A stretch of 36,870 nucleotides of DNA from contig JAJQHQ010000020.1 of assembly GCA_021199655.1 (NCBI GenBank), forward strand, positions 1 to 36,870. Direction: 5' to 3'. Positions 34,941-36,870 of this stretch are shown here, piece after piece. The translations under genes and the position numbers were made by a program. The notes under the pieces are model-generated. The model was not told the DNA's origin, searched no databases, and was given only the letters and a program-made list of their open reading frames with translations. Each line of letters starts with the position of its first letter. The stretch's first letter is position 1. The stretch is from Lachnospiraceae bacterium (GTDB lineage Bacteria; Bacillota; Clostridia; Lachnospirales; Lachnospiraceae).

Positions 34941-36203
34941 TTATTCCAGAACGTATGTCACCCCATTTTCTTCATACAGATCCGTAAGCACAATATCCTC
35001 ATCATTGCACTTAATCGTCCGGTCCTCGCAGTATATAGAATAAATGCCGTTCTTCTGCAGATCATCCAGCGCGTCCGCGTCGAATTCATCAGCAATATAG
35101 ACCGGTATCATCTGCAGCAGGATTTCCGCGCAGCCCAGATTCTCTGAGTAAGACACCAGGCTGTTGACCGAGGATTTGCAGAAGCCATCCTCCGTATCGA
35201 TATAGGACGTACGGATCTCTCCGCTTTCCAGTTCGTAATAATGCTGCACGTCGAAGCTGCTGTTCATCAAATAATCCCGCAGGAATACAATGCTTTTGGA
35301 TCCTTCGTACTGCATGGAAGCCGCCTGGTAAACAGTCTGATCCACCCGGTCGTAGATGGCAAATGACCATTCGGTGCCGCTGGTATCCAGGTTGCGGACA
35401 AAGCCGTCGTAGCTGGAAATCGCGCCCAGCGTATAGCCATTTTCAATCAGCGTATCCGCAATGTAATCGATGATAAACGCATTCTTCATCCAGAAAAAAT
35501 CGATGTAGCTGATAAAGCCGGTCTCTTCTGCATACGCCAGATACTCATCCGAGACAGAAAGCAGGATGGTATTATTGCCCAAAAGCTGCAGCTGAATGTG
35601 TTCGTCAGAGCAGGCATAAGAAAGGACTTCCGCAAAATACTCCGCGACCTCCTCATTCTGATAAGGATCATATTCCGCCGTCTCCCAGTCGTCGCTGCAG
35701 TAAAACAGATTGTTGTATTCGGTATAGATCGGCCCCAGATACAGTCCTCTGCCTCCGGATTCTTCCATCAGCGTAAACGCGTTGTAAAGAACGTCGTCCA
35801 CCACGATTTCCTCATTCGGGTGCGCGTTGATATAGCAGACATTATAGACGCCGTCATAGGTCTCCTCGTTGTGAAAATTCTGCCAGGCCGTCTCCAGAGC
35901 CGACGTGTAAAGAGAAACCAGTGCTTTTTTCTCCGCTGTGGCAGAAATGCCGCCCGCACCGAGATAATACTCGAAAATGAATTCGCTGCCGCCATTGTCG
36001 GAGGATGTGGAATCCGCCTCGATCTCCTGCCAGCCGTCGTTCGCGTTTAAAAGTCCCAGCACGCCCTGTACGAGCAGGGTGATACCCACGATTGCAAAGA
36101 TAACGGTAAAAAACAGACGCAGCTTCCAGTGTTTTTCAGAAACCTCTGCTTTATCCGCCGGTTTCGGGTCGGATGGCTTACGTTCTTTTACGGTACGTTT
36201 CAT
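34941..36203 (-). CDS. Membrane-anchored protein, distantly ApbE-like
   Basis: The 420-residue protein has a basic cytoplasmic tail, one membrane helix (LFFTVIFAIVGITLLVQGVL) and a large external domain. Segments such as FEYYLGAGGISATAEKKALV, ETYDGVYNVCYINAHPNEEI and KNAFIIDYIADTLIENGY then LGAISSYDGFVRNLD follow the order seen in ApbE flavin transferases, but the key Gly-rich and Lys-Gly motifs are changed, so flavin transfer is doubtful. ApbE likeness is my inference from pattern memory. ATG follows GAGGAG inside the end of toxN and overlaps the toxN stop (ATGA), so translation is probably coupled. A strong terminator follows the gene. Confidence 0.7.
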   Translation of the reverse strand: MKRTVKERKPSDPKPADKAEVSEKHWKLRLFFTVIFAIVGITLLVQGVLGLLNANDGWQEIEADSTSSDNGGSEFIFEYYLGAGGISATAEKKALVSLYTSALETAWQNFHNEETYDGVYNVCYINAHPNEEIVVDDVLYNAFTLMEESGGRGLYLGPIYTEYNNLFYCSDDWETAEYDPYQNEEVAEYFAEVLSYACSDEHIQLQLLGNNTILLSVSDEYLAYAEETGFISYIDFFWMKNAFIIDYIADTLIENGYTLGAISSYDGFVRNLDTSGTEWSFAIYDRVDQTVYQAASMQYEGSKSIVFLRDYLMNSSFDVQHYYELESGEIRTSYIDTEDGFCKSSVNSLVSYSENLGCAEILLQMIPVYIADEFDADALDDLQKNGIYSIYCEDRTIKCNDEDIVLTDLYEENGVTYVLE

Positions 36204-36775
36204 AGTTGGTCTCCTCGAAATTCCAGACATTTTCTCTCAGCATAGCAAAAGTCAACTGTGTTTACTATGTATCCCGGAATTGGCCGATTTGGGAAACTTT
36301 TTTGCGGGTTACTTTTCTGATTGTACAATACTCTTGCATTTTTTAAGATTCTCGACTCATTCTCTTTTATGAACATATATTCTTTCATTACCAGATTTTT
36401 ATAATGAATATCTTTCTCATCATTAATCTTATATGGAACAAGTTCAGATTTCGGAACAGGAATCATATTACTCAGTTTCAGCGTACCTAACAATTCTGTT
36501 TTCCCGAGTTTCGTATCCGTTGAAATAATTCTTATGATTGAAAGTGTATCTTTTCGAATCTTTCTAAAATCACTTTCCCCTATGACATAATCCGTATTTT
36601 TAGGAGATGAAAATGGTACGTAATAAAGAAAGCTGTCCTGCGCAAACACCACGCCAAGATATTTCCTTGTATGTATCCGACCATTCTCCTTATTATCGAA
36701 CACGATTCTCAACCTCGGATCAGATCTTAAATAAGAAATATATCTATCAGAAACACTATATATATCCAGATTCAA
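36200..36775 (-). CDS. toxN: Type III toxin-antitoxin endoribonuclease, ToxN/AbiQ family
   Basis: The 191-residue protein shows the family pattern in order: RKYLGVVFAQDSFLYYVPFS then SPK (residues about 37-59, with the Ser of the active site), LLGTLKLSNMIPVPKSEL (95-112), DIHYKNLVMKEYMFIKENES with RILKNARVLYNQK (122-154), and a closing DFCYAERKCLEF. ToxN-type enzymes cut RNA and are held inactive by a repeated RNA antitoxin, and known systems act in phage abortive infection. Length is normal (about 165-200). The frame starts with TTG seven nucleotides after GGGAGGG; no ATG fits. A terminator lies upstream as in known ToxIN loci. The stop overlaps the next gene by four bases. Confidence 0.88.
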   Translation of the reverse strand: MNLDIYSVSDRYISYLRSDPRLRIVFDNKENGRIHTRKYLGVVFAQDSFLYYVPFSSPKNTDYVIGESDFRKIRKDTLSIIRIISTDTKLGKTELLGTLKLSNMIPVPKSELVPYKINDEKDIHYKNLVMKEYMFIKENESRILKNARVLYNQKSNPQKSFPNRPIPGYIVNTVDFCYAERKCLEFRGDQL

Positions 36776-36795
36776 TGCAAAACCCTCCCATTTAC

Positions 36796-36824
36796 AAAAA
36801 AGGTGATGAAAAAATTCATCACCT
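36796..36824 (-). terminator. Intrinsic terminator between antitoxin RNA and toxN
   Basis: On the minus strand AGGTGATGAA pairs perfectly with TTCATCACCT around a 4-nt loop and is followed by six T residues. In characterised type III systems a terminator between the antitoxin repeats and the toxin gene keeps toxin transcripts scarce, which fits this position, 20 bp before the toxN start. Confidence 0.82.
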
Positions 36825-36870
36825 GATGTTATAGATCCCCATTTGACGGCTGGGGAGCACCGGATTTTAT
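36825..36870 (-). ncRNA. Presumed 3' end of the ToxI antitoxin RNA (partial)
   Basis: The 46 bp left before the window edge lie where the last antitoxin repeat should be. On the minus strand a CCCCA/TGGGG hairpin is visible (about 36838-36858). Only one unit can be present, so no repetition can be shown from this window; the call rests on position relative to toxN and its terminator. Confidence 0.45.

Follow-up and report, generated by a model that had tools for sequence, protein, structure and literature searches.

The ToxIN system of Bacillus thuringiensis and the AbiQ/antiQ system of Lactococcus represent the closest described counterparts of the toxN locus presented here. In the excerpts of PMC5086642 drawn on throughout this text, ToxIN holds an antitoxin array, a terminator and a toxin gene, in that order, and its array consists of 2.9 units of 34 nt, which adopt a pseudoknot and carry A-rich cut sites. 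A palindrome acting as a Rho-independent terminator directly before the toxin gene is used in the same source as a criterion for ToxIN systems. The antiQ array comprises 2.8 units of 35 nt, whereas the CptIN system of Eubacterium rectale shares the type III layout and the core fold of the toxin, but has longer CptI units with a different pseudoknot (PMC5086642).

The toxN locus lies at one end of the window, i.e., the whole stretch of 36,870 nucleotides that was analysed, which corresponds to positions 1–36870 of a contig of 60,409 bases (G000:C100) from a Lachnospiraceae bacterium and is followed by 100 N (36871–36970). The preliminary description had read it as a type III ToxIN-like locus, and this reading is supported by the toxin profiles, by a direct repeat flanking the gap, and by arrays found at the same place in relatives. 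The probability that the locus is a type III toxin–antitoxin system of the ToxIN (ToxN/AbiQ) family is put at roughly 0.93; it belongs to this known family and constitutes no new kind of system. The toxin family, a terminator, a promoter match and a repeat unit at both gap edges can be read at the locus itself, and comparison with relatives adds a conserved layout and one covarying stem.

Like B. thuringiensis ToxIN, the locus would run from array to terminator to toxin, with predicted pseudoknot units and putative A-rich cut sites, although its unit measures 38 nt and its array, probably hidden by the gap, is apparently non-uniform. The 38-nt unit is also longer than that of antiQ. In the case of AbiQ, the likeness extends to a match with the AbiQ model of PADLOC and to the alignment of the active-site Ser and Lys; contrary to AbiQ/antiQ, the toxN locus has peptide-transport genes as its neighbours, on a large contig.

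Terminator, repeat unit and assembly gap

An intrinsic terminator (36801–36824, minus strand) separates the predicted antitoxin array from toxN. The hairpin, AGGTGATGAA-TTTT-TTCATCACCT, is formed by a 10-bp stem and a 4-nt loop followed by a T run, and its fold of -13.8 kcal/mol (z -7.6) was equalled by 0 of 200 shuffles. Two terminator-like sites, this one among them, were detected in the 1.1 kb scanned, compared to 0.6 in shuffles. The preliminary description had placed a perfect hairpin terminator upstream of the toxin gene, and all 10 pairs are indeed present, leading into the T run; as in ToxIN, the palindrome precedes the toxin gene. Beyond the gap, a sigma-70 consensus (TTGACA-16-TATAAT, 12/12) is found on the gene strand at contig positions 37105–37078, directed toward the array. 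Promoter-like sites in the scanned 1.1 kb amount to four versus 3.8 in shuffles, the other three reaching 9/12.

The window ends with a 55-nt segment (36816–36870, minus strand), an exact copy of which directly follows the 100 N (contig 36971–37025). Read in the RNA sense, this 55-mer consists of a 38-nt unit, ATAAAATCCGGTGCTCCCCAGCCGTCAAATGGGGATCT (36833–36870, minus strand), and 17 further nucleotides, corresponding to the start of a next, non-identical unit (ATAACATCAGG; 36822–36832, minus strand) that leads into the terminator stem. The 38-nt unit is ToxI-like, as its sequence and the comparison with a related locus (L034) arrange GGT/GCC and CCCC/GGGG stems in the order of a pseudoknot. 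One of the visible unit boundaries, AUAAAAUC, resembles the A-rich cut sites of B. thuringiensis ToxIN, and the other one, AUAACAUC, differs from them. Exact copies of a 16-nt core of the unit are confined, in the whole of its own genome, to the two gap edges; with 2 mismatches, the core is found at three more places, all of them on other contigs. No antitoxin match was obtained with Rfam at E ≤ 1 in the 2 kb around the gap, Tandem Repeats Finder reported across the gap only a 6-nt array inside the neighbouring gene, and the lone 38-nt unit does not fold better than its shuffles (z -0.71).

Since the 55-mer overlaps itself by 1 nt only, the starts of two copies would be separated by at least 54 nt, and the lack of a self-overlap at 38 nt implies either that some units differ from others or that the period is longer. 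An array of uniform 38-nt repeats beneath the gap is ruled out on the same grounds. Some assemblers write 100 N where they cannot resolve a loop. A survey of 318,448 bases of the same genome, including the window and L003 (2,871 bases common to both), revealed four stretches of exactly 100 N, whose edges overlap by 55 (the toxN locus), 25, 55 and 0 nt. The other three gaps all sit at close direct repeats (55 nt repeated at a distance of 76 nt; a tandem repeat of 15 nt; and 55 nt repeated at a distance of 137 nt), and for this reason the gap at the toxN locus is very probably the assembler's mark of a repeat that could not be counted, hiding the antitoxin array.

These surroundings of the other gaps speak against the alternative that the gap is a mere break in the assembly graph, due for example to strain variants, with the 55-mer being single and the antitoxin consisting of one unit plus a stub. 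What this alternative would explain is the size of the duplicated edge, exactly 55 nt here as well as at another gap (L089), which may be the word length of the assembler. It could also draw on three loci (L015, L018 and L019) where one clear unit is seen by eye; however, all eight of the closest relatives found carry 2–3 units, and antiQ needed at least 1.8 repeats, 0.8 repeat being inviable (PMC5086642). A single unit at the toxN locus appears improbable on balance.

Arrays of related loci and structure of the unit

A search with the toxin in 144 relatives resulted in matches in 23 of them at E ≤ 0.001, the own genome counted and some rows being weak and located within long unrelated frames, such as one of 818 aa in G012. 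A scan of genome contigs, which reaches close relatives only, detected one locus: L034, an uncharacterised ToxIN from the Firmicutes MAG UBA4882, whose toxin is 61% identical. This nearest relative holds 38-nt units with the same core, followed by a terminator and toxN, and exhibits compensatory changes in a stem; it differs from the toxN locus in that three units are readable and in that its toxin bears a C-terminal extension of ~70 residues. Upstream units of 38–39 nt, two to three in number, are present in 8/8 of the relatives found whose toxin is at least 45% identical (L034, L005, L059, L060, L061, L062, L063 and L068), among which the toxin frame of L060 contains stops and L063 matches in the first part only.

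The stretches upstream of 27 loci (toxN locus and L034 counted) and, in a second round, of 17 loci were read. The 27 do not include the 818-aa frame, three rows that had no locus, or three entries that were second pieces of loci already counted, and in partial toxin matches the upstream stretch starts inside the toxin. A self-similarity score of at least 18 at a period of 25–74, a threshold chosen after looking and without a shuffle control, was observed for 17/27 and 12/17 loci. The loci below this threshold scored 5–16, and contig ends, non-uniform arrays and the gap of the toxN locus are among them. Rfam gave no antitoxin match on nine other ToxN-like loci, one of them from the own genome and four belonging to the eight closest relatives.

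At E ≤ 1e-9, toxin matches are found in 10 of the 397 genomes from the family and in 11 of the 392 from the order, with the own genome in both counts. One scan of viral contigs, reaching close relatives only, showed no toxin locus, and tblastn with the toxin matched 10 of 72,556 plasmid records and 2 of 50,697 phage records. Because all of these plasmid and phage matches lie below 60% identity, no recent mobile source was found.

Two more ToxN-like loci are present in the same genome. The first one (L027; contig C35, upstream of 422–923) holds three non-identical units, each of which can build two stems of its own, arranged alike; series of units like these are also seen in relatives of other genera (listed alongside are L073, L065 and L074). 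The second one (L095; contig C88, ~1264–1683) is a third ToxN-like gene with an in-frame stop, upstream of which repeat units and a hairpin are retained, as judged by eye, and an intact relative of it (L024) is found in G026. Another locus, L033, has no short tandem units, and by eye two long, similar and widely spaced stretches precede its toxin, unlike the usual array.

For the structure of the unit, 16 units from eight relatives and the toxN locus were registered by hand on the conserved core, omitting duplicates (the units of L068 and one each of L063 and L064), the first unit of L061 and the more distant loci. A MAFFT alignment of the units, which shifted the 39-nt ones at their 3' side, was not used for the counts. 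In stem 2, 40/40 cells pair over ten distinct core/strand pairs, compared to a mean of 35.4 and a maximum of 39 in 10,000 shuffles, which ignore the relatedness of the units and build on the hand-set register; in slid registers, pairing drops to 23/32, 22/32, 31/44 and 23/44. Double changes between C-G and U-A are found at 3/4 positions of this stem; at one position, a single unit carries the change. Covariation across relatives thereby supports stem 2 as a predicted helix. Stem 1 is short: two of its pairs are invariant G-C, and the third is standard in 4/16 units, including the one at the toxN locus (U-G), and a non-standard A-G in the remaining 12/16. The unit is thus likely to be a pseudoknot, one half of which is supported in this comparison.

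The toxin and its family

The toxN gene (36200–36775, minus strand) starts with TTG and encodes a ToxN/AbiQ-family endoribonuclease toxin of 191 aa, assigned through profile and PDB sequence matches. The preliminary description had reported a 191-residue protein with four ToxN/AbiQ motifs, and a TTG start with GGGAGGG; the four motifs are all present in this frame, and the CCCTCCC at 36783–36789 of the plus strand, 7 nt before the TTG, reads GGGAGGG on the gene strand and is assigned as the ribosome-binding site. A search with the ToxN_toxin profile, which the same description had proposed, bears out the assignment: Pfam PF13958 matches residues 3–159 (E = 3e-31) with 109.2 bits, well above the cut-off of 25. 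The AbiQ model of PADLOC, which covers residues 4–186 (5e-33) and is the sole defence model matched by the protein, agrees, and NCBIfam returned 0 matches for it. With phmmer, the best PDB match is ToxN of the B. thuringiensis ToxIN system (4ato; E = 1.9e-11), followed by AbiQ (4glk; 5.2e-10), 7d8o (3e-6) and a second ToxN entry (2xd0; 8.5e-6). The loop PFSSPK of the protein aligns with PLLSYK of AbiQ, placing S57 and K59 opposite the AbiQ Ser and Lys; in AbiQ, Ser51 is the likely nucleophile (PMC5086642). The toxN product is a full-length ToxN/AbiQ toxin, predicted to cut RNA and to be neutralised by its own RNA.

The toxin being full length, with conserved blocks and the Ser and Lys of the active-site loop, argues against a decayed remnant, in which toxN would still be open while the antitoxin or the toxin no longer works. 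The TTG start, the non-uniform units and the stop that interrupts the toxN-like gene on C88 would fit such a decay; nevertheless, the promoter, the ribosome-binding site and the terminator are all near consensus, making a remnant quite improbable. A CptIN or TenpIN type III system in place of ToxIN, conceivable because fold and layout are common to these families, is very improbable, given that the 38-nt unit comes near the 34–36 nt of ToxIN members (PMC5086642) and that the PDB matches up to E = 10 consist of only four sequences (ToxN, AbiQ and one ToxN/AbiQ-family chain), with no CptN chain among them.

Insertion site and proposed mode of action

Downstream of toxN lies a gene for a protein of 420 aa (34941–36203, minus strand), which has no Pfam family at E ≤ 0.001 and, as a flank common to relatives, is considered to be outside the module. 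The TGA of toxN overlaps the ATG of this gene (ATGA, 36200–36203), and a GAGGAG ribosome-binding site is found within toxN; the overlap suggests that translation of the 420-aa gene may be coupled to that of toxN. Two proteins with ABC ATPase domains are encoded further downstream, and the genes upstream of the locus, which share its strand, encode an oligopeptide ABC transporter (ATPases, permeases and a solute-binding protein) and a peptidase M3. PADLOC, at E ≤ 1e-5, matched four of ten neighbours (models mad3, mad8, ATPase-Toprim, AriA and AbiLi), but these matches are taken as generic because all four proteins are ABC ATPases by Pfam. This neighbourhood, made up of oligopeptide-transport and ABC-exporter genes, does not look like a defence island.

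Both flanking proteins were searched in 47 genomes of the genus, and the 420-aa protein was matched in 17 of them. The matched flank frames are 10 nt apart in four genomes (G005, G034, G041 and G043), 12 nt in two (G007 and G046) and 82 nt in G028. In G009, G014, G030, G035, G036 and G040, the interval amounts to 268–433 nt and contains palindromic repeats, as seen by eye. A REP-like palindrome, GGACATCCAGTGGATGTCC, and variants of it are found at the flank interval in several relatives (L037–L042, intergenic), and also on contigs C88 and C35 of the own genome.

In the sister genome G039, the flanks are 97.5% and 95.9% identical at the DNA level, up to contig positions 36203 and 37151, which fall on the start codon of the 420-aa gene and, in an oppF-like gene, on the first base of the stop codon. 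In place of the toxN locus, this genome holds (L096; G039:C58, 5702–6361) a RelB-family antitoxin (PF04221, 1.3e-8) and a ParE-family toxin (PF05016, 8.1e-10). The two sister genomes carry unrelated toxin–antitoxin modules at one site, predicted to be of type III and of type II (RelB/ParE-type), respectively, in a comparison made up of two draft genomes and a scaffold join across the gap. No paper on such a module swap was found in an open-licence literature search, with no claim that the case is unpublished. It is possible, if doubtful, that the short stretch from the oppF-like gene to the 420-aa gene serves for the exchange of whole, unrelated toxin–antitoxin modules; in this reading, the ATGA overlap may also tie translation of the downstream gene to toxN, and two types of unit may alternate in the antitoxin array (period of at least 54 nt).

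The mode of action expected for the toxN locus is modelled on the known family, as regards the transcription pattern, the processing of the RNA, inhibition, release and any phage defence. Transcription from the promoter at contig 37105–37078 would produce an RNA of ~38-nt pseudoknot units; the terminator would end most transcripts after the array and allow a few to read through to toxN. With readthrough limited to this minority, antitoxin RNA would be in excess of the toxin. ToxN would then cleave the array RNA at A-rich junctions, releasing single units that bind and block it. If the supply of RNA ends, for instance because an infecting phage has blocked host transcription, unbound ToxN would cleave cellular RNA and lead to cell arrest. 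Phage defence by abortive infection is a trait of some ToxIN members only.

The general picture of type III systems is unaltered by the toxN locus. It adds to ToxIN a member with an antitoxin subtype of 38–39 nt, present in the eight closest relatives found, and the natural compensatory changes of these relatives back one stem of the antitoxin unit. The exchange of type III against type II at one site, with flanks that are nearly identical, provides a small, clean case of a module swap.
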